Shown here one piece after another: positions 61-48,262 of a stretch of 64,000 nucleotides of DNA. The position numbers and the translations under genes are program-made. Each line of letters starts with the position of its first letter. Positions within the stretch are counted from its first letter, which is position 1. This DNA comes from a bacterium HR11 (GTDB lineage Bacteria > Acidobacteriota > HRBIN11). The stretch lies in NCBI GenBank assembly GCA_002898535.1, contig BEHN01000012.1:1-64000 (forward strand), given 5' to 3'. The notes under the pieces are model-generated. The model was not told where the DNA came from and did no database searches. It saw nothing but the letters and a program-made list of their open reading frames with translations.

Positions 61-3000
61 TCAGGGTCCATAGAGCAAGAGGTTGAAGGCCCGGACCAGA
101 AAGACGGCCATCTGGGCCCGGTTGACGGGGTCCAGCGGACAGTAGGTCGTCGCCGTGCACCCGCCGGTGATGTTGTTGGCCCACATCCAGTGCACATGCC
201 GACAGTAGGGGGCGCCGTCGGGTACGTCCGTGAAGTGGTTGGGCGCACTGTCGGTGCAGTCCCAACTCCCGCCCGGACCGCTCCCGGACGGCGGCGGGTC
301 CATCCCCAAGACGGCCCGGCTGATAAAGATGGCCATCTGGGCCCGGTTGACGGGGTCCAACGGACAGTAGGTCGTCGCCGTGCATCCGCCGGCGATGTTG
401 TTGGCCCACATCCAGTGCACATGCCGACAGTAGGGGGCGCCGTCGGGCACGTCCGTGAAGTGGTTGGGCGCATTGTCCGTGCAGTCCCAGCTCCCGCCCG
501 GGCCGCTCCCGGACGCCGGCGGGTCCGTCCCCAAGACGGCCCGGCTGATAAAGATGGCCATCTGGGCCCGGTTGACCGTCTGAAGCGGACAGTAGTCGCT
601 GGCCGTACAGCCGCCCGTCACGCCCCGGTGCAACAGCGTCTCCACCGCTTTGTAGTAAAACACATTCGGCGCCACGTCGGCGAAGCTCGGCCCGATATGG
701 AGCGTCCACGTCTTGGGCGCCGGCTGCTGGAGGGCCCACACGGCGGTCAGGGTCTCGTCGATGGTCACATCCCTGTGGCCCCAGGCCGTCCGGCTCCCCG
801 TGACGGCGTAGCAGTTGCCCGTCGCCGTCTGACAATTGGCCGACGCCCCGGCCGCGACCGTCCCGTAGTCAGCCGTCGTGTCGGTCAGCGACGCCGTCAC
901 GTCCGGCGGGACGACGACGTTCCCCGCCGTCCCCGTCGCCGAGACGGCCGCCGCCTCGTTGTTCTGCCACGTCGGCACGACCGTCGCTGTCTCGCCCGAG
1001 TCCCACACCTCGTTACCGTTGGGGTCGACCGCCAACCCCACAGGGGCCAGCAGAGTCGGAAGGGTCGACAGCTTGACCACAAAGGCGTCCCAGCTACCGT
1101 TGGGACTCGTATCGTAGGCCCCCGGCGTCGTCGGAAAGTCGGAGGACCCGGTCGGGCCCGTGACGTAGGCCGCCCCGTTCCCGTCCACGGCAATGCCGTA
1201 GCCCTGGTCATTGGCACCTCCGCCCAGGAAGGTGGCGTAGGCCAGGTCCGCATTCCCCTGACCCGCCGGATTCAGCTTCACGACAAAGACGTCCGTGAGG
1301 CCGTTGAAAGTCGTATCGTAGGCCCCCGGCGTCGTCGGAAAGCCGGAGGACCCGGTCAAGCCCGTGACGTAGGCCGCCCCGTTCCCGTCCACCGCAATGC
1401 CGTGGCCCTCGTCCCCGCTACTTCCGCCCAGGAAGGTGGCGTAGGCCAGGTCCGCATTCCCCTGACCCGCCGGATTCAGCTTCACGACAAAGACGTCCGT
1501 GAGGCCGTTGAAAGTCGTATCGTAGGCCCCCGGCGTCGTCGGAAAGTCGGAGGACCCGGTCAAGCCCGTGACGTAGGCCGCCCCGCTCCCGTCCACGGCA
1601 AGGCCGAGGCCCTCGTCCCCGCTACTTCCGCCCAGGAAGGTGGCGTAGGCCAGGTCCGCATTCCCCTGACCCGCCGGATTCAGCTTCACGACAAAGACGT
1701 CATCCCCGCCGTTGGGGCTCGTATCGTAGGCCCCCGGCGTCGTCGGAAAGTCGGAGGACCCGGTCAAGCCCGTGACGTAGGCCGCCCCGACCCCGTCCAC
1801 CGCAATGCCCCAGCCCTCGTCCCAGCTACTTCCGCCCAGGAAGGTGGCGTAGGCCAGGTCCGCATTCCCCTGACCCGCCGGATTCAGCTTCACGACAAAG
1901 ACGTCCATGTTACCGTTGTGACTCGTATCATAAGCCCCCGGCGTCGTCGGAAAGCCGGAGGACCCGGTCAAGCCCGTGACGTAGGCCGCCCCGTTCCCGT
2001 CCACGGCAAGGCTGCGGCCCTCGTCATAAAGAGCTCCGCCCAGGAAGGTGGCGTAGGCCAGACCCGAACCCGAGGCATTCAGCTTCACGACAAAGACGTC
2101 CCCCCCGCCGTTGTGACTCGTATCATAAGCCCCCGGCGTCGTCGGAAAGTCGGAGGACTCGGTATAGCCCACGACGTAGGCCGCCCCGACCCCGTCCACC
2201 GCAATGCCCCAGCCCTGGTCAACGCCAATCCCCCCCAGGAAGGTGGCGTAGGCCAGGTCCGCATTCCCCTGACCCGCCGGATTCAGCTTCGCGACAAAGA
2301 CGTCCGTGAGGCCGTTGAAAGTCGTATCGTAGGCCCCCGGCGTCGTCGGAAAGTCGGGAGACACGGTCAAGCCCGTGACGTAGGCCGCCCCGACCCCGTC
2401 CACGGCAAGGCCGTAGCTATAGTCATGGCTACTTCCCCCCAGGAAGGTAGCGTAAAGGAGGGAACCCGAGGCCGGCTGGACGTCCCCGGCCGCCTCCCGA
2501 CCAAAGCCCCTGGATACAAACGGAGTCATGACCACCCCATCCCCCTGCCGCCGGGGCGCCGGAGGCTCCTGAGCTCCCGCCGCCTCCAGGAGCGGCACCG
2601 TGAACGTCCCCACCCCTGTGGCCAGCCGCACACCCTCCCTTCCTACCGCCTCCACCTCGGCCCCCTCGACCCGCAGGCCGACCGACTTCAGCCTCTTCCC
2701 GCAGTCCCCGCCCCGACACACCAGCCGCCACTTCCACCGGCCCCCCTCGCCCCTCACCTCCAGGTCCACCCCGGGATACAACCCCCGGTACCGCACCCCA
2801 CGCCACACCGGCACGTTCCTGCGCCACCGGGTCGGGTCGTTGCCGATCAGATAGTTGACCGACGTCTCCATCCGACCCAAGGGCTCCAGGCGGGCATGCG
2901 GATTGGCTCCCACAAAGCTCAGCCGCAGGGCCACGCCCCGGGACCTGCCGGCTTCATCCCGGCCATCCGACGGGTCCGCACCCCAAGCGACCACCGTTAC

Positions 3001-3249
3001 CCAGATGCCGTCCTCGGCCAGCCAGATCGCCCGGTCCGCCCCGGGGACCTGAAACCGCCCCCGGCCTTCCCACTGGCCCACGTTCTCGACAAACATCAGG
3101 GGGAGTCCCCCCCGGGCCTCCTCGCCCGGCCCGGCCGCCCCCACCGTCGGATTCCCTCCGGCCCCCAGGAGCCAAGCCCCCAGAAGGCCCACCAGCCCCA
3201 TCCGAACCACGTGGCGAATGGGGAATGGCGAATAGCGAAGGGTGGACAT
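61..3249 (-). CDS. Secreted SBBP-repeat protein with C-terminal SLH-like domains
   Basis: 1062 aa, predicted to be exported and kept at the cell surface; its ligand or role is unknown. Residues 1 to about 40 form a signal peptide. The motif MFVENVGQW near residue 52 opens the N-terminal domain usual in SBBP proteins. Residues about 250-720 hold seven near-identical repeats of about 70 aa, each starting YATFLGG and containing AYVTGLT and FPTTPGAYDT. A CARDB-like beta sandwich follows (about 730-850), then three S-layer-homology-like units (about 860-1060) with FADV or HFTDV and GGCTA motifs, the last two almost identical. The ATG is preceded by a strong AGGAGGT site, which decides the start. 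The first codons lie in a GCGAATGG-type intergenic array. SLH units suggest attachment to the wall or surface layer (inference). Confidence 0.85.
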   Translation of the reverse strand: MSTLRYSPFPIRHVVRMGLVGLLGAWLLGAGGNPTVGAAGPGEEARGGLPLMFVENVGQWEGRGRFQVPGADRAIWLAEDGIWVTVVAWGADPSDGRDEAGRSRGVALRLSFVGANPHARLEPLGRMETSVNYLIGNDPTRWRRNVPVWRGVRYRGLYPGVDLEVRGEGGRWKWRLVCRGGDCGKRLKSVGLRVEGAEVEAVGREGVRLATGVGTFTVPLLEAAGAQEPPAPRRQGDGVVMTPFVSRGFGREAAGDVQPASGSLLYATFLGGSSHDYSYGLAVDGVGAAYVTGLTVSPDFPTTPGAYDTTFNGLTDVFVAKLNPAGQGNADLAYATFLGGIGVDQGWGIAVDGVGAAYVVGYTESSDFPTTPGAYDTSHNGGGDVFVVKLNASGSGLAYATFLGGALYDEGRSLAVDGNGAAYVTGLTGSSGFPTTPGAYDTSHNGNMDVFVVKLNPAGQGNADLAYATFLGGSSWDEGWGIAVDGVGAAYVTGLTGSSDFPTTPGAYDTSPNGGDDVFVVKLNPAGQGNADLAYATFLGGSSGDEGLGLAVDGSGAAYVTGLTGSSDFPTTPGAYDTTFNGLTDVFVVKLNPAGQGNADLAYATFLGGSSGDEGHGIAVDGNGAAYVTGLTGSSGFPTTPGAYDTTFNGLTDVFVVKLNPAGQGNADLAYATFLGGGANDQGYGIAVDGNGAAYVTGPTGSSDFPTTPGAYDTSPNGSWDAFVVKLSTLPTLLAPVGLAVDPNGNEVWDSGETATVVPTWQNNEAAAVSATGTAGNVVVPPDVTASLTDTTADYGTVAAGASANCQTATGNCYAVTGSRTAWGHRDVTIDETLTAVWALQQPAPKTWTLHIGPSFADVAPNVFYYKAVETLLHRGVTGGCTASDYCPLQTVNRAQMAIFISRAVLGTDPPASGSGPGGSWDCTDNAPNHFTDVPDGAPYCRHVHWMWANNIAGGCTATTYCPLDPVNRAQMAIFISRAVLGMDPPPSGSGPGGSWDCTDSAPNHFTDVPDGAPYCRHVHWMWANNITGGCTATTYCPLDPVNRAQMAVFLVRAFNLLLYGP
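1066..2455. repeat. Seven tandem in-gene repeats of about 215 bp (SBBP units)
   Basis: Near-identical DNA units inside the gene at 61-3249, each encoding one SBBP repeat. The units share long identical blocks, such as the stretch coding for NPAGQGNADLAYATFLGG, which implies recent duplication or ongoing homogenisation. Unit number is likely to vary between strains and to be hard to assemble. Confidence 0.85.
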
Positions 3250-4415
3250 GGCCTACCTCCTTTTGGATTCGAATTGGATTCGAAGCGAGGCTTCCCATCC
3301 AGCGTCCCTGCCGGTGAACATAGCCTTCGGCCCGGCAGAATCCCGAAAAGAGCAAAGAGCAAGGAGCGTCGTGCAAAGAGTGTTTACTCTTTGCCCTTTG
3401 CGCTTCGGTGGGATCGGCTTTTCCGACCCCGGGGAGGACGGTTTTTCAAGGAAAGGGCCATCCGGGAATTCGGGAGTTCGGCAGGTGGGCAGGTCGGCAG
3501 GTCGGCCGGGGGGCCGGGCGACCCTTTTCATCCCAGCCCCGCTCGCAAGAGCGGGGTCCGGGGCGATCCGGCCGTCCGGGAGTTCGGGAAGGTCGTTCGG
3601 CGGCCGACGTAGAAGACAAGGGGCATGTAGCGTTCCAAGCGCCCACATCTCCTTGAAGTTTTCCGGCTCTGTTGTCATCCTGGAGCCATCGTCTCAAAAG
3701 TGGCCCCGGTGGGCCTGCCCCCCTACCGGAGCCGGTTCACCCGGTCCCAGCGCCCGGCCCTCCGGCTGGGGCGGGCCTACGACAGCGACCGCCTGAAATT
3801 TTTGGGCTCTCTTCGGCGGGCCCAGGGCCTCCGGGCCTCTCCAGAGGCCTGAAGAGGATATCAACAGAGCCAAGTTTTCCCGACTCTTCGCCGCTCCTGT
3901 CGCCGACCGCCAGCGCCGGCCTCCAGGCCGCATCCCCGACCCGGTGGGCCTCCCGATAGCATATTTCCAAACCCCCATGCCACCGCTGAGACGCCGAGAG
4001 CGCCGAGAAAAATCGAAGAAACACCCTCGTCCCTTGCGGCCTCTGCGCCTCGGCGGCGCGTTTTGCAACAGGCCCGACCGGCCGACCTGCCGAATTCCCG
4101 AACTCCCGGACGGCCGGATCGCCCCGGACCCCGCTCGGGCGAGCGGGGCTGGGATGAAAAGGGTCGACCGGCCGAACCTGCCAAACTGCCGAACTGCCGA
4201 GCTGCCAAACTGCCAAACTGCCGAATTCCCGCATTCCCGAACTCCCGGACGGCCGGATCGCCCCAGACCCCGCTCTTGCGAGCGGGGCTGGGATAAAAAA
4301 CTCCGTCACTTCGTCCCTCCATCACTCCGTCCCTTTGAAACATCGTGCTTCCCGGGCGATGGGAAAGGCCGTCCCGACGCCACTCTCACGCACTGAACGG
4401 CCCTGTTAAGGCCGT
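3250..4415. repeat. Gene-free repeat block with mixed repeat families
   Basis: No credible gene. It holds TTCGGGAA-type arrays (about 3468-3512, 3573-3600, 4081-4110, 4165-4250), REP-like palindromes at 3524-3557, 4127-4160 and 4266-4300, a diverged copy of the 266-bp element at about 3860-4085, a GTGACGAAG-type array (about 4305-4340), and a copy of the end sequence of the composite elements at 4331-4410 (minus orientation). A degraded copy of the same end lies near 3396-3450. Open frames across it have repeat-derived composition and are not called. Confidence 0.7.
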
Positions 4416-5564: not shown

Positions 5565-5636
5565 GGACGAATAGCGAGGGGCGAATCGGGCATCGGGATG
5601 GGATACCGTTCGCCATTCGCTATTCGCCACTGGCTT
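5565..5636. repeat. GCGAATGG/CGCTATTCGCC array with opposed arms
   Basis: The left arm reads as GCGAATAG/GCGAATCG units and the right arm as CGCCATTCGCTATTCGCC units, so the two can pair into a hairpin. It ends just before the ribosome binding site of the oxidoreductase gene at 5650. Confidence 0.7.
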
Positions 5637-7394: not shown

Positions 7395-7725
7395 GCAGGT
7401 CGGCAGTCGGCAGGTCGGCGGATGGGTAGGCAGGCAGTACAGGCGATCTCATAAATCCGACCATCGACCCCAGACCATAGACCGGCTTGGGCCCAGGGGA
7501 TCTGTGGTCCATGGTCCGTGGTCTGATATCGAGGGTCCGATCCCGGTCCCGTCGGATTGATGAGACGGGTTCGAATCCATCTGTACGGGATACCTCGGCC
7601 CGCCGGCCGTCATGCCGGCGTCAGCATTTACGCTGTGAGCACTCCCGCATCCGGAATCCACCCGCCGACCGGCCGAATGGTTCCAGACCCCGCTCGCCGG
7701 CGAGCGGGGCTTGGATGGAAAGGGC
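7395..7725. repeat. Intergenic repeats: GGCAGGTAGGCAG array, CCATAGACC hairpin, REP-like palindrome
   Basis: Three repeat types in series. A GGCAGGTAGGCAG-type array (about 7385-7440) begins at the kinase stop. A CCATAGACC-type hairpin follows (about 7452-7535), opened by TCATAAATCCGAC, with arms separated by a GGCTTGGGCCCA centre. A REP-like palindrome lies at 7686-7721, just past the pyrF stop. A short CCGTCATGCCGGCGTC motif near 7608 recurs at about 34133. No gene seen. Confidence 0.7.
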
Positions 7726-8454
7726 CTATCGGCCGACCGGCTCATTGCCCCCCGCCTCATAAAAAGCCGCATTCAGCCGCTCGCAGACGGCTATCGGGTC
7801 CGGACTCGCCGTCAGGGCTCGGCCCAAGACGATCCAGTCGGCCCCGGTTCGGAGGGCATCCCAGGGCGTCGTCCACCGACGCTGGTCGTCGGCCGGCGCT
7901 TCCAGCCGGACGCCCGGCACGACGGTCCGAAAGTCGGGTCCGTACTTCTGCCGGATCGCCGGGACGTCCCCGGCCGAGCAGACGACGCCGTCAAAACCGG
8001 CCTCCAAGGCCCATCCGGCCAGGCGCTCGGCCCACGTCGCCGGCGAGCCCGTCGGGTCCCAGGGCGGCCGGTCGTGACTCGTCAGGACGGTGACGGCGAT
8101 GAGAAGCGGCCGGTCCGGCCACGGGCGGGCCGTCTGGGCTAACGACCGAAGGGCCTCGGGACCGCTGAGGGCATGGAAGTTGACCATCGCCACCCGCAGG
8201 TGGTAGGCCGCCCGGAGGGCGCTCTCCATCACGCTGGGGATGTCATGGAACTTCAGGTCCAGGAAGACGCGGGCGCCGGTCTGATGGATCGCATGGATGA
8301 GGGCAGGTCCATGCCGTAGAAAGGCGACGGGGCCGACCTTAAACCAGGTGACCCACGGCCGCAGGCGCTCGACCCACGCCAGGGCGTCCAGCCAGGACGT
8401 CTGGTCCAGGGCCACGATGACCCGGTCCCACCAGGAATGGCGCTCTCGGTCCAT
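7726..8454 (-). CDS. pyrF: Orotidine 5'-phosphate decarboxylase
   Basis: 242 aa. Decarboxylates OMP to UMP, the last step of pyrimidine synthesis; a cytosolic TIM barrel dimer. The catalytic charge relay is seen as LDLKFHDIPSV (Asp-x-Lys-x-x-Asp, about residue 60-75). The phosphate-binding end is GADWIVLGRALTASPDP near the C terminus. The start is uncertain: ATG at 8454 and ATG at 8463 are both plausible and neither has a strong ribosome binding site. The frame stays open further upstream only through repeat sequence (AGGATGCAAGATGC-type). Other pyr genes are not in the window. Confidence 0.9.
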   Translation of the reverse strand: MDRERHSWWDRVIVALDQTSWLDALAWVERLRPWVTWFKVGPVAFLRHGPALIHAIHQTGARVFLDLKFHDIPSVMESALRAAYHLRVAMVNFHALSGPEALRSLAQTARPWPDRPLLIAVTVLTSHDRPPWDPTGSPATWAERLAGWALEAGFDGVVCSAGDVPAIRQKYGPDFRTVVPGVRLEAPADDQRRWTTPWDALRTGADWIVLGRALTASPDPIAVCERLNAAFYEAGGNEPVGR

Positions 8455-13287: not shown

Positions 13288-14169
13288 ATGCTTAATATGT
13301 TACGTATCCTCCGGACCTTCGGCAATCCCGGCCTGGCCAAGCTCCTCCCGGCTTTGAAAAGGTCCATCCTTGCAAGGATAATCCCACCTCATCTCCGAAT
13401 CCGCCGTCGGAGATGCGCCGCACTGCCTCACGGCCTCACGGCCCTCCTGCCTTATGGCCTGATGGCCTTCCTGCCTATTCCTCTGACCCTCGGACACCCG
13501 CAGGCCCCCTTCGTCCTCCAGAGCACGGTCATGCTCTTTGAGTTCGACGCCGAGGACCAGTGGCGCCCGATGTGGGTGACCGTCAGCGGGACTTGGCAGA
13601 CGGTCGCCGACCCGACGGCTCCGTCGCCGCCCTACGTCCTGACCCAGACGGCCCGCTACCTGGACTTCCCCAAGATTTACCTCGACCAAGGCGAGTTCTA
13701 CGACTTCCAGGCCGAGGTCGCCTTAAAGATCCTGCCCCTCGACCAAGAGACCCAGCCCCGGCCGGGTCGTTCGGTCTTCGAGATCGGACCCGAAGAGGTC
13801 CCGGAAGTCGCCTATCCGGCCGACTATGCGGCGGGCCTCCTGCTTCGCTACCGGGGACCCTTCTCCTTCGTCGCCGCCGTCCTGGACGCCCGGACGCAGG
13901 CCGTCTATCTGTTTCGGATGAGCACGGCCGGCGTGAAGGTCCTGGGCCGTCAAGCCGTCCCCGTCCAGTTGAATCGATGGTACCATCTGCGGGCCGTGTG
14001 CTACCTCGACCAGGTCCACTTATTCGTGGACGGCCAGCCCGTCCTGAGCCGGGAGGAGCGGAGCCTGACGGGCGGTCGGGCGGGCCTCCTCACGGTCGGG
14101 ACGACTCGCGCGCACTTGGACGACTTTCGGGTCTCGACCGAGCAGGTCCGGGAAGCAGGGCGGGATTGA
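13288..14169 (+). CDS. Exported concanavalin/LamG-like protein of unknown function
   Basis: 293 aa. ATG 13288 is chosen because GGAGAAGCGGGG lies just upstream; an in-frame ATG at 13255 is less likely. A long basic N terminus (RIRRRR) precedes a hydrophobic stretch at about residues 50-75 (GLTALLPYGLMAFLPIPL), a probable signal or anchor. That stretch is encoded by a CTCACGGCCTTATGGCC-type array. The mature part has the rhythm of a laminin-G/DUF1080-type jelly roll: DFQAEVALKI, AAGLLLRYRGPFSFVAAVLD, NRWYHLRAVCYLDQVHLFVDG and AHLDDF. Such domains bind sugars or decorate secreted enzymes; no catalytic motif is seen. Confidence 0.65.
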   Translation: MLNMLRILRTFGNPGLAKLLPALKRSILARIIPPHLRIRRRRCAALPHGLTALLPYGLMAFLPIPLTLGHPQAPFVLQSTVMLFEFDAEDQWRPMWVTVSGTWQTVADPTAPSPPYVLTQTARYLDFPKIYLDQGEFYDFQAEVALKILPLDQETQPRPGRSVFEIGPEEVPEVAYPADYAAGLLLRYRGPFSFVAAVLDARTQAVYLFRMSTAGVKVLGRQAVPVQLNRWYHLRAVCYLDQVHLFVDGQPVLSREERSLTGGRAGLLTVGTTRAHLDDFRVSTEQVREAGRD

Positions 14170-14537
14170 CGGCAGTCCGGGAATCCGGCAGTTCGGGGAT
14201 CCGGGAGTCCGGGAATTCGAGCCTGTTTCAAAACTCACCGCCGAGGCGCAGAGGACGCAGAGGATGAGAGCTTTTCTTCGATTTTTCTCTGCGTCCTCGG
14301 CGTCTCGGCGGTGGAATGGAGTTTTTGAAATACACTCTCGGCAGTTCGGGGATCCGGGAATTCGGGAATCCGGGAGTCCGGCAATCCGGGCAATTCGGGC
14401 AGTCCGGGGATTCGGCCGGGGCCAGATATACCGCTTGGACGGTAGGTCAGGGTGATCTCGCCGCCCCCTCTACCATTTATATTTATGCCGAACCGCCGGA
14501 TTCCCGAACTCCCGGACTGCCGGACTGCCCGATAGAC
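14170..14537. repeat. Array block with a partial copy of the 266-bp element
   Basis: TTCGGGAA/CAGTCCGGG-type arrays at about 14170-14230 and 14340-14410, and opposed units CCCGAACTCCCGGACTGCC at 14495-14530. Between them (about 14225-14345) is a diverged partial copy of the 266-bp element. Its core is a hairpin with arms 14236-14264 and 14286-14313 of the GAGGCGCAGAGGACGCAGAG type. No gene seen. Confidence 0.7.
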
Positions 14538-17408: not shown

Positions 17409-17833
17409 CGGAGCCGTTCAGCCCGTGAGAGCCCCGATCCGCTCGGCTTTTCCGACCCTTCGAGGAGAGCCGTTTTTCAAGCAGAGTGACGTCGTGGCGA
17501 CGTAATGGCGGGACGACGATCAGGCGGGCCCTTCCGCCCGGAGGACGGCTCCCCTGCCGACTCCGTCCCGCCATCACGACGTCACGTTAAAATGGCGAGT
17601 AGCGGACGGCGCATGGTCCGGAGTCGGGGTCGTTCCGGGACCGCGTCTCGCCGTCCCGTTGAAGGGGCGACCCCGCTCTTGCGAGCGGGGCTGGGATATG
17701 AGGTGTCGGGGGCCAGGGAGGTCGGCCCCGTTCCGCCGCCGTAGGGGCGACCGGCCGGTCGCTCCGACCGACGTGACTTTCCGGGGAACTCCCGGTCGGG
17801 TCCGTCAGGGGGTCAGCCCGATGTCAGCTCCTG
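17409..17833. repeat. Gap with a composite-element end, GTGACGTC units and a REP-like palindrome
   Basis: Holds one end (about 17409-17485) of the composite element family, starting GGAGCCGTTC and finishing GTTTTTCAAGC. GTGACGTCGTGGCGACG units follow, with the opposed CGTCACG half at about 17572-17590. A REP-like palindrome lies at 17669-17700. The space 17590-17665 shows nothing clear, and no gene is seen. Confidence 0.65.
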
Positions 17834-19633: not shown

Positions 19634-19639
19634 CGGACG

Positions 19640-19762
19640 GCCAGTGGCGAAGGCGAGTGGTGAATGGCGAATGGCGAATAGCGAGTGGCGAATGGCGAAT
19701 AGTACTATTCGCTACTCGCCACTCGCCATTCGCTATTCGCTACTCGCCACTCGCCCCTCTGA
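19640..19762. repeat. GCGAATGGCGAGTAGCG array with opposed arms
   Basis: About six plus-sense units (GTGAATGGCGAATGGCGAATAG and similar) face about seven reverse units (CTATTCGCTACTCGCCACTCGC and similar), joined by TACTATTC. The whole block can fold on itself almost end to end. It spans the gap between two minus-strand genes. Confidence 0.75.
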
Positions 19763-22781: not shown

Positions 22782-22961
22782 GGTTCCACCTCCGTGAGTT
22801 CAGGTCCCGGGCCCAAATTCTGGTCAAGATGCAGGTCCCGGGTCTCGGACCATAGGGTCGGCTCCAGACGGTGCGATCCGACCCACGTCGGGTTGCGAGA
22901 CCTGGAGGGGAACCGGAGGGAGAGGGAAAAATGCGCAGAGTACAAGCGGCGCACAGCGGAC

Positions 22962-23052
22962 CTTCCCTCCGCCGGCATTACCCGGATCAGGTTCCAGGGG
23001 TCGGTCCCGCCGTAGGGACCCTCTCAGCCTGGTTGCCCAAGCTCCCCCAGGT
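22962..23052 (-). promoter_or_regulatory. TPP (THI-box) riboswitch of thiC
   Basis: Read on the minus strand, the conserved THI-element blocks occur in order: GGGGGAGC, then CTGAGAGGG, then ACCTGATCCGGGTAATGCC, and finally GGCGGAGGGA. This is the thiamine-pyrophosphate aptamer that turns thiamine genes off when TPP is plentiful. It lies in the thiC leader, followed by about 180 nt before the ATG, where the expression platform should be. No clear terminator was identified there. Confidence 0.95.
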
Positions 23053-23104
23053 CCATGGTTCAGACAAAAGTTTAACCCTGGCCGGCGGCGTCGGCAACGT
23101 CATG

Positions 23105-23429: not shown

Positions 23430-26173
<2,744 letters not shown>

Positions 26174-31297: not shown

Positions 31298-32359
31298 ATG
31301 CCCGTAAAGATGCCCTTCCATCGGATTCGGTCGTGGGGGCTCCTTGTCCTCGCCGGATGGCTGTCGTACGGGGTCGCCTGCGGCAAGAAAGGGCCTCCGC
31401 TTCCGCCCCTCCCGCAGATCCCGTCGGCGCCCTCCGAATGGGGTCTCCGATGCGTGGGTCCGGTCTGCGGCCTCTGGATGGTCCCGCCGGACCGGAATAC
31501 GGACGGCACCCGACCGGTCCGCATCGGATGGGTCCTGCTGGTCCCCGAAGGGGCGGCTCCGCCCTTTGAACCCGAACGGGCCGTCGCCGCCTGGCGGTTC
31601 TCGCCGGCGGACGTCCGTCCCGACGGCCGCATCTGGTGGGGCGCCCTGTCCCGATGGCCGACGGGATGCGTCCGGCTCGTCCTGCTGAATCCCCGACGGA
31701 AGAGCGGCCCGCCGACGGAACCCGTGTGTCCGGTGCCCCCCGACGATGGGCCGCCCCCGGACGTGCGGGTCGATACGACCCCTGAGGGCATCCGTATAAG
31801 TCGACCGGAGGGGACCGTATCGGGTGTCCTGGAAGTCTATCGAGTCCAGGGGGAAGCCCAGCCGCCGGCGCGGGCCCTCGAATGGCCCTGGTCGCCCCAC
31901 GCCGTCATCGAGTCGGGCCAGGCCGCCTGGACGGACACGACAGTCCGGGACGGCGAATCCTGGACCTATGGCGTTCGCCGCCAGGCCCGCCGGGACGCTC
32001 ACCTGTGGGTCGCCTCGGCGACCCAGCCGATCGGTCCCATCCGTTATGAGGACATCTTCCCGCCGCCCACCCCGAGCCATCTCACCGGCTTCGTCGAGGA
32101 CGGCCGCCTGGTCCTCCTGTGGGACCCCGTGACGGCCTCCGACCTGGCAGGGTACTTCGTGTACATGCGCCCGGCCGGTGCCCCCACTTGGGAACGGCTG
32201 AACGACCGACCGACGGCCTCCACCCGCTTCGAAGTCCTCCTGTCCAGGACACCGGACTGGAAGGAGCCGGTCGAATTTGCTATAACGTCCGTGGACCGTA
32301 AGGGGAACGAGAGCTCGAAAAGCCCGTCATGGGTATACGGCCATTCGGGAGTTCGGTAG
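31298..32359 (+). CDS. Lipoprotein with fibronectin type III-like domains
   Basis: 353 aa. Signal peptide with lipobox LSYGVAC about 25 residues in (Cys acylated), directly followed by GKKGPPLPPLP, the start seen in many small outer-membrane lipoproteins. Two beta-sandwich (FnIII-like) segments: about 140-235 (VRVDTTPEGIRISRP to WTYGVRRQ) and about 255-345 (LTGFVEDGRLVLLWDPV to FAITSVDRKGNES). Unusual: the last residues GHSGVR and the stop codon are encoded by a CCATTCGGGAGTTCGG array. Periplasmic or outer-membrane location; function unknown. Confidence 0.7.
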   Translation: MPVKMPFHRIRSWGLLVLAGWLSYGVACGKKGPPLPPLPQIPSAPSEWGLRCVGPVCGLWMVPPDRNTDGTRPVRIGWVLLVPEGAAPPFEPERAVAAWRFSPADVRPDGRIWWGALSRWPTGCVRLVLLNPRRKSGPPTEPVCPVPPDDGPPPDVRVDTTPEGIRISRPEGTVSGVLEVYRVQGEAQPPARALEWPWSPHAVIESGQAAWTDTTVRDGESWTYGVRRQARRDAHLWVASATQPIGPIRYEDIFPPPTPSHLTGFVEDGRLVLLWDPVTASDLAGYFVYMRPAGAPTWERLNDRPTASTRFEVLLSRTPDWKEPVEFAITSVDRKGNESSKSPSWVYGHSGVR

Positions 32360-32560
32360 TCCGGCCCATCGGCCGAATTCCCGGACTGCCGAACTCCCGA
32401 ATGCCCGAGCTCCCGAATTGCCGAGTTCCCGGACTGCCGAACTCCCGAATGCCCGGGTGGCCCTGGACCCCGCTCGGACGAGCGGGGCTTGGATAAAAAT
32501 GGCCCACTGCCCATCGGCCCGGCTCCCGAACTCCTGAATGGCCGAATTCCCGGATCAGGG
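32336..32560. repeat. TTCGGGAG/CCCGAACTGCC array and REP-like palindrome
   Basis: A short left arm (GCCATTCGGGAGTTCGGTAG) starts inside the lipoprotein gene and a long right arm of about twelve CCCGAACTCCCGAATGCC-type units follows. A REP-like palindrome lies at 32466-32499, then more units to 32550. It is one of the longest arrays in the window. Confidence 0.75.
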
Positions 32561-36465: not shown

Positions 36466-36657
36466 ATGCCTCAGATGCCGGAGAAGGCTCTCGGGGGCCG
36501 GGTACCGCTTCAGATTTCAAATTTCGTGACGGCGGGACGGCGTCGGTGTGGACCCTTCCGCCCGGGCGACGGCTCCTTTTCAGAGCCGTCATGCCGTCCC
36601 TTCGCACCCGGGACGGGGGACCTCTCTCGGTAGACTGAAAGCCGATGGAGGACTGGG

Positions 36658-38385
36658 ATGGCCAGGCAGGCCGGGCAACCATTGGCCATTCGCCGTTCGC
36701 CGCTCGCCATTGGCTATTGGCTACTCGCCCTTTTGCTGGCGGCCGGCGGTCTCCGGGCCGATGCGCTCCTGGACGGGAGACGGCGGCCGTTCGCCGAATC
36801 CCGGGCACCCGTCCCGGCGGGGGGAGCCGTTTTGCACAGCTACTTGCAGGAGCTGAGCCGCGTCCCGCCGGGGGCGGACCTCCGCCGGCTCCAGGCGCAG
36901 GGCCGGGCGCGGGGCTTCCGGTGGTTTGATTCGAACGTCCTGGTCCGGATCCTCCCGGTCCCCGACCGAAAGGACGAAGTCCTCCGGGCCCTGGCCCAAA
37001 TTCCCGGCGTGCAGGTGACGAACGCCTATCCGACGGCCATCGAGGCCCTCGTGCCTCACGATAGGGTCGGGGCGTTGGCTTACGTCCCCGGCATTCGTCA
37101 GGTCACGCATCCGCGATGGTTCCGGCCGATGGTCGTCTCCGAGGGCCTGTCGGTCGTCGGGGCCGTCCAGTGGCAACAGCTCCCTCGGGTCCTGGGGACG
37201 GTCCGGCCGACCCGGGTCGGCATCGTCGACATCGGGTTTAAGGGGTATCAAAACCTGGCGGGCACGGAACTTCCCTCGATGAGCCGCATCCATACTCGGA
37301 ACTTCCGGCAGGACCGGGACTTCGAGTCGACCGAACACGGGACGGGCGTTGCCGAAATCGTCATCGACTTTACGCCGGACGTCGAACTCTACCTGGCGGC
37401 CGTCAGCACGGGCGGCGAGCTGGCCCAGGCCATCGACTGGCTCCGCCAGCAGGGCGTGCAGGTCATCAACGGGAGCATCGGCACGGACGTCCGGGCGGGC
37501 AACGGGTGCTGTAGCCCTGAGTACGACGAGCTCGACCGGGCTTGGCAAAGCGGCGTCGTCTCCTTTTTTGCCGCCGGCAATGAGGCCCTCTCCCACTGGT
37601 ATGCCCCGGCCTTCGCTGACCCCGATAGGGACGGCTGGCTGAACTTTCAGCCCTCAGGCATACCGGTCCCGGGCCCCCTCCCGGACGGGACCGAGCGCAA
37701 CTGCTTTCGGGCCGAACGGGGTCGCGACCTCACGTTGGCCCTCCTCTGGTACGATTGGCCGGTGACGGCCCGGGATTACGGCCTCTACATATTCGATGCC
37801 GTTTTCCTGCAACGGATCGCCGTCGCCGATGAGCCCCAGACGGGGTCGCAAGAGCCTGTCGAGTACATCGAACTGACGGGTCTGATTCCCCACGACGGGA
37901 CCTACTGTGCGGCCATCCGACGGAACCAGGGTGCCGGCGACGTACCCGTCGAGTTGTTTATCGACAGCGACCTCTGCGGGGGTCGGACGCCTTGCTTTAC
38001 GTATGTCGTCCCGGACTTTAGCATCATCGGCCCTGCCGATGGTGTCCACGTGATCGCCGTGGGCGGGACCGTCTGGAATACGGACGTCGTGGCGCCATAC
38101 AGCTCGTGGGGTCCGACGTTGGACGGCCGGCTGAAGCCCGACATCACGGCGCCGACCCATGTGAGCACTCGGACGTACGGCGACCAGGGCTTTCTATTCG
38201 CCGGGACCTCGGCGGCGACCCCGCATGCGACGGGGGCCGTGGCCCTGATCCATCGGAAAGTCTTCTCGGCATTTTCGGGCACGACGATCTATGAAGTCCT
38301 GAAGGCCCGCAGTCGGGACCTCGGTCCCCCGGGCCCCGACCCGATGTACGGACTCGGACGGCTCTTCATGCTCCCGCCGCATTAG
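36658..38385 (+). CDS. Secreted S8-family (subtilisin-like) serine protease
   Basis: 575 aa. Signal peptide at about residues 10-35. Catalytic triad: Asp in VGIVDIGF (about 187), His in EHGTGVAEI (about 225), Ser in FAGTSAATPHATGA (about 520), and the oxyanion Asn region VVSFFAAGNEAL. A long insertion with paired Cys (GNGCCS, CFRAE, DGTYCAAI, DLCGGRTPCF), probably disulfide-bonded beta structure, lies between His and Ser. The signal peptide codons (about 36685-36735) are made of a CGCCATTCGC/TGGCTATTGG array. ATG 36658 has GGAGGACTGGG upstream. It belongs with the following barrel gene on one strand. Confidence 0.9.
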   Translation: MARQAGQPLAIRRSPLAIGYWLLALLLAAGGLRADALLDGRRRPFAESRAPVPAGGAVLHSYLQELSRVPPGADLRRLQAQGRARGFRWFDSNVLVRILPVPDRKDEVLRALAQIPGVQVTNAYPTAIEALVPHDRVGALAYVPGIRQVTHPRWFRPMVVSEGLSVVGAVQWQQLPRVLGTVRPTRVGIVDIGFKGYQNLAGTELPSMSRIHTRNFRQDRDFESTEHGTGVAEIVIDFTPDVELYLAAVSTGGELAQAIDWLRQQGVQVINGSIGTDVRAGNGCCSPEYDELDRAWQSGVVSFFAAGNEALSHWYAPAFADPDRDGWLNFQPSGIPVPGPLPDGTERNCFRAERGRDLTLALLWYDWPVTARDYGLYIFDAVFLQRIAVADEPQTGSQEPVEYIELTGLIPHDGTYCAAIRRNQGAGDVPVELFIDSDLCGGRTPCFTYVVPDFSIIGPADGVHVIAVGGTVWNTDVVAPYSSWGPTLDGRLKPDITAPTHVSTRTYGDQGFLFAGTSAATPHATGAVALIHRKVFSAFSGTTIYEVLKARSRDLGPPGPDPMYGLGRLFMLPPH

Positions 38386-41119: not shown

Positions 41120-41684
41120 GCCGGACAGTGGCTCTGTATCAAATATACGAAGCCCCTTGCGGCGTGTCAAGGATTCGGGAGTTCGGGAATTCGGGAATTC
41201 GGCAGTCGGGCAGGTCGGCAGTCGGCAGGTCGGGAGTTCGGCCGTTCGACCCTTTTCATCCCAGCCCCGCTCGTTAGAGCGGGGTCCGGGGCGATCCGGC
41301 TGTCCGGGAGTCCGGGAGTTCGGCAGGTCGGCAGGTCGGCAGATAGGCAGGTCGGGCCTGTTGCAAAACGCACCGCTGAGGCGCAGAGCACGCAGAGGCC
41401 GAGGGTGTTTCCTTCGATTTTTCTCGGCGCTCTCGGCATCTCAGCGGTGGAATGGAGGTTTGGAAATACGCTATCGGGAGGCCCGCCGGGGCGGGGATGC
41501 GGCCTGGAGGCCGGCCCCGGCAGTCGGCGACAGGAGGCGGCGAAGGGTCGGGAAAACTTGTAGGGACTCGGGACGATGGATGCCCCCTTGCCTTCTACGT
41601 CGGCCGCCGAGCGGCCCTCCCGAACGGCCGAACTCCCGCATGGCCCCGGACCCCGCTCGGGCGAGCGGGGCTTGGACGACCGGC
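41120..41684. repeat. Gap with TTCGGGAA arrays, REP-like palindromes and one 266-bp element copy
   Basis: TTCGGGAATTCGGG units lie at 41169-41240 and 41305-41340. REP-like palindromes lie at 41253-41286 and 41649-41676. The minus-orientation copy of the 266-bp element occupies 41330-41595. Frames across it are repeat-derived and not called. Confidence 0.75.
41330..41595 (-). repeat. 266-bp element, copy in minus orientation
   Basis: By base-by-base reading it is the exact reverse complement of 44262-44527. The inner part is a strong hairpin (CACCGCTGAGGCGCAGAG facing CTCAGCGGTG). No coding potential is credible. Confidence 0.9.
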
Positions 41685-42398
41685 CTACCCGCCAAAGGGA
41701 ATTTCCCGGTCGATGCGGATCGACCGCCAGGTGACCCGACAGGCAAAGGCCCGCACGGGCACGCCGGCCGCTCGGGCCGACCGCACGGCCTCGTACAACG
41801 CCGGGTCCGTCTGCCCGTCGACGGCGGCCGCCCGGGCGTCCGACCGCTGGACGACAAAGACCAGGGCGACCGGGTACCCGGCCCGGTGCATGGCCGTCAG
41901 AGCCTCCACGTGATGGCGGCCCCGGACCGTCACGGCGTCCGGAAAGTAGCCGACGCCGTCCCGGACGAGCGTGACCGACTTGGTCTCGACCCACCAAACG
42001 CCACCGTCGGTCTCGACCCACAGGTCGAGCCGACCTCGATGGTCCCCCAGGGGAATGGGCGGCTCCAGCCGCCAGGCCCGGAGGCGGCCCCAGAGCGAGG
42101 CCCGATGCCGCTGGAGATATTCCAGGAGGAGCCGAGGCGGCAGACGGGCATCGATGCTGGCCCACCCGCCGCTGGGCGTCCGGGCCAGTAGGAGCGTGCC
42201 CTGCGTCCGACGACCGGGGTCGGCCCGACGGGGTCGATAGCCGACCTGATTGCCCGGAAAGAGAAGCTCCCGGAGCCGACCCGAATTCGGGATGTGGACG
42301 GTCCGGACCCGCCGGCCGTCCCGGACCCGACCGTGAAACCGGGACTTCCGTTCCAAAAAGACGGCTTTCCGTAAACGCCCGGACCACCGCATGTCCAT
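41685..42398 (-). CDS. sfsA: SfsA family DNA-binding/nuclease-like protein
   Basis: 237 aa. Seen: GRLRKAVFLERKSRFHGRV, VRTVHIPNSGRLRELLFPG, RLDLWVETDGGVWWVETKSVTL (PD-(D/E)XK-like core with Asp, Glu, Lys), FPDAVTVRGRHHVEAL, VFVVQRSDARAA and the end VPVRAFACRVT. The order matches SfsA (sugar fermentation stimulation protein A), whose molecular role remains uncertain. ATG 42398 or 42392 may be used. It sits inside the pair of 266-bp inverted repeats. Confidence 0.9.
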   Translation of the reverse strand: MDMRWSGRLRKAVFLERKSRFHGRVRDGRRVRTVHIPNSGRLRELLFPGNQVGYRPRRADPGRRTQGTLLLARTPSGGWASIDARLPPRLLLEYLQRHRASLWGRLRAWRLEPPIPLGDHRGRLDLWVETDGGVWWVETKSVTLVRDGVGYFPDAVTVRGRHHVEALTAMHRAGYPVALVFVVQRSDARAAAVDGQTDPALYEAVRSARAAGVPVRAFACRVTWRSIRIDREIPFGG

Positions 42399-43892: not shown

Positions 43893-44261
43893 GGATTCGG
43901 GGATCCGGGAATTCGGGCATTCGGCCCTTCGGGAAGACCGTTCGGCGGCCGGCGTAGCAGAACCATTCGGTTCGTGAGAATGGCGTCGGAACAGCCCTTC
44001 CCATCTCCTGGGAAATACGATTTTTCCAAGCGCCGGAGTGACGAGCAACCAGGCCGGCCGATGGGCCGTTTTTATCCCAGCCCCGCTCGCAAGAGTGGGG
44101 TCGCGGCCATCCGGCCGCCCGACCGTCGGGGAAGAGACGAGCTACGGCCTTACTCCCGGATTCCCGAACTCCCGAATGGCCCTTGGCTTGAAAAACGTCC
44201 TTCCCGAAGGGTCGAAAAAGCCGAATCCATGCGGGTTTTCACGAACCGAACGGCCCTGATG
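43893..44261. repeat. Gap with an inverted-end composite element (43958-44260)
   Basis: After the anti-sigma stop a short TTCGGGAA array (43895-43925) leads into an element. Its left end (43958-44036, CAGAACCATTCGGTTCGTGAG to TTTTTCCAAGC) and right end (44187-44260, reverse complement of the same kind of end) enclose GGAGTGACGAG units, a REP-like palindrome (44069-44102) and CCCGGATTCCCGAACTCCC units. No gene seen. Confidence 0.75.
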
Positions 44262-44527
44262 GAAGGCAAGGGGGCATCCATCGTCCCGAGTCCCTACAAG
44301 TTTTCCCGACCCTTCGCCGCCTCCTGTCGCCGACTGCCGGGGCCGGCCTCCAGGCCGCATCCCCGCCCCGGCGGGCCTCCCGATAGCGTATTTCCAAACC
44401 TCCATTCCACCGCTGAGATGCCGAGAGCGCCGAGAAAAATCGAAGGAAACACCCTCGGCCTCTGCGTGCTCTGCGCCTCAGCGGTGCGTTTTGCAACAGG
44501 CCCGACCTGCCTATCTGCCGACCTGCC
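44262..44527 (+). repeat. 266-bp element, copy in plus orientation
   Basis: Reverse complement of 41330-41595 without a mismatch that I could find. It begins directly after the right end of the composite element at 43958-44260. The last bases merge into a CTGCCTATCTGCC array (to about 44540). Confidence 0.9.
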
Positions 44528-44633
44528 CACTGCCAACTACCCACCTGCCGAATGCTTGAAACATCATGCTTTCGTGGAGGTGCCCTTTCCGCTCTCCATC
44601 GCCCTTCTCACCTCCCGAACAGCTCGGATAAGC

Positions 44634-47390: not shown

Positions 47391-47790
47391 CGTCGATTCG
47401 CCTCCGACCTCTTCCAAAGATAGCCCCCTCAGGGCGCAATTCAAGGGCCGTGGTAGGGCGAATGGCGAATGGCGAGTGGCGAATGGCGAATAGCGAATGG
47501 CGAGTGGCGAATGGCGAATAGATCCTCGTCTCCCTACCTGCTTATCCGAGCCGTTCGGTTCGTGAAAACCCGCATGGATTCGGCCTGATTGGCTCATGGC
47601 TCATAGCCGCATGGGCTATGAGCCCATAGGGGCTATGAACCATCCATCACCCTGGCCCGTCACTTCGTTACTCGTCACTCCGTCACTTCATCACTTTGAA
47701 ACATCGCGTTTCCCGGGCGTTGGGAAAGGTTGTTCTGACGCCATTCTCACGAACCGAGCGGCTCTGATAATCGGCCAGCAAGCCGCGCGC
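47391..47790. repeat. Gap with GCGAATGG array and composite element 47544-47770
   Basis: A GCGAATGGCGAGTGG array lies at 47455-47520. An inverted-end element follows: left end from 47544 (CTTATCCGAGCCGTTCGG) truncated at about 47588, cargo ATGGCTCATAGCC and GTCACTTCGTTACTCG arrays, right end 47692-47770 in opposite orientation. The aroF promoter begins 21 bp after the element. Confidence 0.75.
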
Positions 47791-48164: not shown

Positions 48165-48262
48165 AGGCGCCGAACAGCGAATAGCGAGTAGCGAGCAGTA
48201 ACAGTTATCACTCACCATTCGCTACTCGCCATTCGCCGTTCGCTACTCGCCATTCTTCACGA
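48165..48262. repeat. GCGAATAGCGAGTAGCG array with opposed arms
   Basis: Left arm GCGAATAGCGAGTAGCGAG and right arm ATTCGCTACTCGCCATTCGC face each other between the leader peptide and aroF. In the RNA this would be a long imperfect hairpin about 20 nt before the aroF ribosome binding site. Confidence 0.75.

Follow-up and report, generated by a model that had tools for sequence, protein, structure and literature searches.

The stretch of DNA analyzed here (the window) comprises 64,000 nucleotides of the genome that we label G000; two congeners, G001 and G002, served for comparison, and the congeners at least are metagenome-assembled. At positions 36658..38385, on the forward strand, lies a gene for a subtilase-like protease of 575 residues. 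Its product belongs to family S8, as judged by a Peptidase_S8 match (PF00082, E=1e-24, 87.8 bits against a gathering score of 21.8), and the motifs VGIVDIG, STEHGTG and GTSAATP, which by eye are conserved in the three species, can be read in its sequence as putative active-site motifs for Asp, His and Ser. A Shine-Dalgarno-like GGAGG (36647..36651) stands 6 nt upstream of the ATG at 36658. Codons 1–36 (36658..36765) specify a predicted signal peptide, MARQAGQPLAIRRSPLAIGYWLLALLLAAGGLRADA. A signal-peptide prediction had been proposed as a check in an earlier note on this DNA: using a simple home-made rule for Sec-type signals (basic n-region, uncharged h-region and a small-x-small cleavage motif within ∼40 residues) the peptide passes with a score of 2.36, with A-D-A at residues 34–36, and the protease is accordingly scored as a putative exported protein. 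A twin-arginine reading of the segment IRRSPLA was dropped because the motif is absent in both G001 and G002.

Almost half of this peptide is written by a tandem array. Positions 36681..36729 (forward strand), coding for residues 8–24 (PLAIRRSPLAIGYWLLA), consist of seven contiguous 7-mers with zero mismatches to the pattern RYTSGCY: ATTGGCC, ATTCGCC, GTTCGCC, GCTCGCC, ATTGGCT, ATTGGCT and ACTCGCC. With seven units the array belongs to the RYTSGCY family, whose definition asks for three or more units, contiguous and in register. It supplies the end of the n-region and the first half of the h-region; LLLAAGG (the rest of the h-region) and LRADA (the cleavage region) are non-array sequence. The earlier note had described the codons of the hydrophobic export signal as built of repeat units: the coordinates, the sequence and the seven perfect units bear this out, but the array accounts for no more than about half of the hydrophobic stretch. 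The array comprises a pyrimidine arm only, the palindromic form being absent, and does not fold (z +1.1). This, together with the absence of an Rfam match over the array, rules out a hairpin or RNA function for the protease copy.

Elsewhere in the genome the family is chiefly intergenic. A survey of 1.925 Mb of G000 (64% of the genome), in which genes were called with a simple home-made codon-usage program and arrays were defined by three or more units, returned 97 RYTSGCY arrays, 77 of them fully intergenic; the number of units differs from array to array. The intergenic units are highly uniform in one respect: 503 of 511 contain TCG. TGG, by comparison, occurs in 6 of the 511 units of other arrays and in three of the seven protease units (p=1.2e-4). 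A strict three-unit pattern is found 461 times in G000, 84 times in G001 and six times in G002, while the reversed control is found zero times in G000. Of 396 Acidobacteriota genomes, 21 match a strict four-unit pattern; array-rich genomes from outside the genus are few (G052, G122, G164 and G354). Arrays of several families occur with periods of seven and eight in about equal numbers (156 and 161 in the sample); periods of 5, 6 and 9–12 are near zero.

The palindromic form is common in the RYTSGCY family but not universal. In all eight pairs of arms that are on opposite strands and no more than 60 bp apart, the purine arm comes first and the pyrimidine arm second (G000 sample). The earlier note had listed stand-alone hairpins at 5565, 19640, 47455 and 48165, and three of these stood: the intergenic palindromic arrays at 5566..5635 (purine then pyrimidine arm, z −6.0), 19639..19755 (a long hairpin, z −12.5) and 48169..48258 (z −5.0) all fold. 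The fourth, at 47457..47519 on the reverse strand, is an intergenic single-arm array that forms no hairpin (z +2.2), although such copies belong to the family too. None of the arrays in the window has an Rfam match; the window's only matches are one tRNA and a TPP riboswitch (RF00059, 76 bits) at 22947–23058 on the reverse strand.

The arms are not placed indifferently with respect to genes. In G000, 15 pyrimidine-arm sense arrays lie 14–50 bp 5′ of start codons and antisense arms are always at least 59 bp away; purine arms cluster at the first bases 3′ of stop codons, and fourteen arrays in the sample overlap gene 3′ ends in antisense, mostly providing the stop codon. Arms near starts and stops may act as leaders or terminators, examples in the window being 5608–5635 and 48210–48258.

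Since seven is coprime to three, all three frames of an array give one and the same heptapeptide cycle. The cycles of the pyrimidine strand (IRYSLFA, TRYSLLA, IGYWLLA) are stop-free; mean hydropathy is 1.6 for IGYWLLA, the product of TGG units, and −0.1, 0.9 and 0.3 for the three other pyrimidine-strand heptapeptides. A related reading is given by the TTTGCTC family, which yields FALCSLL with a mean hydropathy of 2.5. The purine strand reads as charged, start-rich GEWRMAN or EQRAKSK, with stops where GAATAG falls in frame. Given the observed polarity of the arms, a palindrome would provide an n-region followed by an h-region from either strand.

The protease gene is not alone. In the G000 sample five genes are overlapped by an array in sense, in every instance within the first 34 codons and in every instance in a gene for a secreted-type protein: besides the S8 protease these are a gamma-glutamyltransferase (GGT; C1:142617, PF01019), a putative polysaccharide deacetylase with a weak match (C2:162553), a TPR protein (C3:182341, reverse strand) and an SBBP beta-propeller/SLH protein of 1062 residues encoded in the window (61..3249, reverse strand). 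In the last, a three-unit sense array with one mismatch (3213..3233, reverse strand) codes for YSPFPIR, residues 6–12, in the n-region of the predicted signal peptide; evidence for the start site is provided by AAGGAGGT upstream of the ATG. The same gene contains 204-bp tandem duplications (1069–2583). Arrays overlap 5 of 1381 N-termini and 1 of 8876 interior windows (Fisher p=2e-4), and the products of all five array genes score as secreted by the simple rule, compared with a base rate of 340/1381 (0.246^5=9e-4). The GGT and deacetylase ORFs hold both arms of the palindrome, purine arm first, and contain no alternative start between array and mature protein.

These counts depend on correct starts. 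The gene caller over-extends starts into pyrimidine-rich leaders, and with sense arrays lying 14–50 bp upstream of many starts some N-terminal overlap could be spill-over; each start was therefore judged case by case. One M16-type gene (C3:132275) was rejected as an over-extended call, its G001 orthologue starting at the equivalent of MRSRH. Nor were all N-terminal overlaps counted as real: the 8-mer families overlap genes in sense too, mostly with a better start downstream. The 21 arrays sampled in G001 include two that code for further signal peptides, one in an FHA protein and one in an SH3-domain protein; another signal peptide apparently consists of TTTGCTC-family units adjoining an array. 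No array signal peptide was found among 36 arrays sampled in the array-rich genome G052, which shows that array abundance alone does not yield them. A separate case within a gene is a run of four perfect units, in antisense, in an apolipoprotein N-acyltransferase gene (G000:C1:95312-95339); it codes for residues 187–196, directly after the LNT_N domain match (26–181).

Alignment of the protease with its orthologues, as the earlier note had suggested, gave the anticipated pattern of a conserved mature part and a differing signal part: the mature protease DNA is 92% (G001) and 83% (G002) identical to that of the window, the array-coded codons 67% and 47%. The 20 residues immediately past the signal peptide are, however, equally divergent (9/20 identical, 60% DNA), so that divergence alone is not diagnostic of array capture. 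Both congeners retain the ATG with GGAG upstream. All three orthologues bear signal peptides of near-equal length, that of G001 being exactly as long as the one in the window, and there is no empty site among them. The best four units in the orthologues show 4 (G001) and 5 (G002) mismatches, fewer than any non-array N-terminus in the G000 sample; over seven units the best scores are 12 and 13, and units 1–3 are nearly unrecognisable in both. We take this decayed 7-base register to be the probable remnant of an array in the ancestor of the genus. No orthologue outside the three species was found in the searched genome contigs. The same signal peptide in relatives that lack arrays, which by the earlier note would have spoken against capture, was looked for: the homologues in G003 and G010, genomes without array matches, have unrelated signal peptides, as does a G001 paralogue that is 50% identical.

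The remaining genes allow similar comparisons. In the deacetylase, whose mature proteins are 89% identical in the two species, an array codes for the signal peptide of G000 and G001 has an unrelated one; the swap is flanked by a conserved MG.TV start and a conserved GSSRVLREVQ. For GGT, a different heptamer family (TTGCTCY) writes the signal peptide in G001, and G003 and G004 have ordinary ones; that of the TPR protein is coded by 7-base arrays in all three species, with differing units. A HAD hydrolase contains an in-frame RYTSGCY palindrome of ∼32 residues in G002 (C537, L226:1587-2408, reverse strand), another repeat-rich insert at the same site in G001 (C54) and none in G000 (C8:87981-88679). 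Outside genes, the G002 site orthologous to 19639–19755 (C116:4471-4604) holds a different repeat, as if the site had been retained while the repeat was exchanged. Together these comparisons indicate that arrays enter coding sequence, and that sites keep repeats while the family changes. Rickettsia palindromic elements (RPEs) are likewise palindromic repeats inserted in frame in protein-coding genes, but are longer single elements. By description, the HAD hydrolase insertion in G002 resembles RPE insertions; we know of no tie between RPEs and signal peptides.

We consider it likely that the 5′ end of an S8 protease gene, whose product was already exported, took up a heptamer array of the intergenic family, probably in the ancestor of the genus. 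The array would thereby have become, or replaced part of, the DNA that codes for the signal peptide, an event that most likely predates the divergence of the three sampled species. A pyrimidine strand that is free of stops and gives the same heptapeptides in any frame may explain why it was retained, and the mixture of arginine and hydrophobic residues in its peptide would suit a Sec n- and h-region. Point changes from TCG to TGG (R to G, S to W) may later have raised the hydrophobicity of the h-region: the TGG excess replaces arginine or serine there, which would fit later refinement of an imperfect array signal. Array-coded signals in other secreted-protein genes of the genus would reflect the same kind of capture. 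The earlier note's suggestion that an array became a secretion signal is supported for part of that signal by several observations: hundreds of copies are intergenic, a start and a Shine-Dalgarno-like site lie upstream of the array, four more secreted-type genes have an array at the same place, the mature protein is conserved and its signal peptide is not, and the signal peptides of array-free relatives are unrelated.

The array could instead be a recent acquisition of the window's species, gene conversion or slippage having overwritten an ordinary signal sequence, with the register in the congeners coincidental. The contrast between units 1–3 here and in G001 and G002, and the far smaller numbers of array matches in those two genomes (84 and 6, against 461), speak for this; the identical signal-peptide length in G001, and four units at 4 and 5 mismatches that no non-array N-terminus of the G000 sample equals, make us regard it as unlikely. 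Still less probable is that the array is an untranslated 5′ leader and the true start lies downstream. Sense arrays in G000 do often end 14–25 bp upstream of start codons, and over-extended gene calls do occur, but GGAGG precedes ATG 36658 at 6 nt, both congeners have GGAG ahead of the conserved ATG, and short of codon 59 the frame offers just two later starts, a TTG at codon 9, within the array, and a TTG at codon 26, which leaves no n-region.

Two further readings seem to us very improbable. Signal peptides are of low complexity and rich in the codons from which the array is built, and an ordinary leucine/alanine-rich signal peptide might by coincidence appear periodic. Given the peptide, however, a perfect register has a probability of 5e-6 (200,000 synonymous draws from genome codon usage, mean 7.4 mismatches); none of 1,376 gene 5′ ends, the five array genes excepted, comes within five mismatches over four units; and the control periods (5, 6, 9–12) yield almost no arrays. 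The earlier note had also entertained the opposite direction, a signal peptide that came first and whose DNA seeded the intergenic family. The one point in favor of this is that sequence similarity by itself has no direction. We can give it hardly any credence: the intergenic units are almost uniformly TCG and the protease array is mixed; copies number in the hundreds between genes, and five different genes carry an array; and a few distant Acidobacteriota are rich in the 7-mer but lack a close protease homologue, such as G052 (best E 5.9e-6, catalytic part only), where the sampled arrays lie outside genes.

Beyond capture by single genes, the palindromic arrays may form a frame- and strand-independent reservoir of signal peptides, repeatedly captured by and exchanged among secreted proteins during speciation; we put this forward tentatively, as somewhat less probable than its opposite. 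The purine arm, with its ATG and GTG codons and charged residues (MANGERR, EQRAKSK), would then serve as n-region, and the hydrophobic products of the pyrimidine arm (IRYSLLA, IGYWLLA, FALCSLL) as h-region.

Signal peptides change rapidly in evolution, a wide range of sequences can act as one, and the origin of new ones is rarely visible. In this genus intergenic repeats seem to have been drawn on repeatedly for predicted secretion signals: a countable DNA source is visible, from which nearly any in-frame fusion would give a hydrophobic, export-type stretch, and sister species provide natural before-and-after pairs for array capture. If export is confirmed, this amounts to a testable route from non-coding repeats to functional protein parts in bacteria.

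The nearest precedent comes from the enterobacterial RU-1 and RU-2 elements, small mobile, MITE-like sequences of 103–168 bp that also occur intragenically (PMC2759123, a paper that cites RPEs as well). In Yersinia pestis the predicted signal peptide of YPO1552 consists in part of an RU-2 repeat, the signal peptides of other genera being unrelated to the repeat (PMC2759123). As in the protease, a repeat contributes to a predicted signal peptide; the RU case concerns one small putative exported protein, whereas here the repeat is a degenerate 7-bp tandem array, a single genome has it in no fewer than five genes of secreted type, and sister species carry swapped versions. Heptamers of sequence TAACTGA in Beggiatoaceae are direct repeats, mostly intergenic, often placed ahead of a start codon or across the stop codon of the preceding gene, and within ORFs take the stop-free orientation, mostly near protein ends (PMC4679880). 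Like RYTSGCY they have a 7-bp period, lie mainly between genes, run over upstream stops and are tolerated near protein ends; they differ in the unit, an inverted arrangement is reported only once, and the term 'signal peptide' is absent from that paper. PARCELs are coding palindromic repeats with dyad symmetry in membrane-targeted proteins, where they form 25-residue amphipathic protein repeats (PMC2996958); they are alike in being coding and dyad-symmetric, but are not 7-bp arrays in a signal peptide. No paper on heptamer-coded signal peptides was found among the open-licence papers searched. The capture of a repeat as signal peptide is therefore precedented; what is new is that one genome shows it repeatedly, that the signals are exchanged between sister species and that the reading frame does not matter.

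The window also contains repeats of other kinds. Octamer arrays (RAYTSCCG / CGGGAATT, AGATGGGC) equal the heptamer arrays in abundance and are mainly intergenic, with examples at 4057–4274, 14154–14407, 24556–24677, 32348–32482 and 41160–41357. Often adjoining them is a hairpin-like element, CCCCGCTC..GAGCGGGGCTTGGAT, present in seven copies (4129–4175, 4268–4314, 7690–7736, 17671–17717, 24829–24875, 32468–32514 and 41651–41697). An inverted repeat of 280 bp, 98% complementary, is formed by 41327–41606 and 44251–44530, with a spacing of 2.6 kb.
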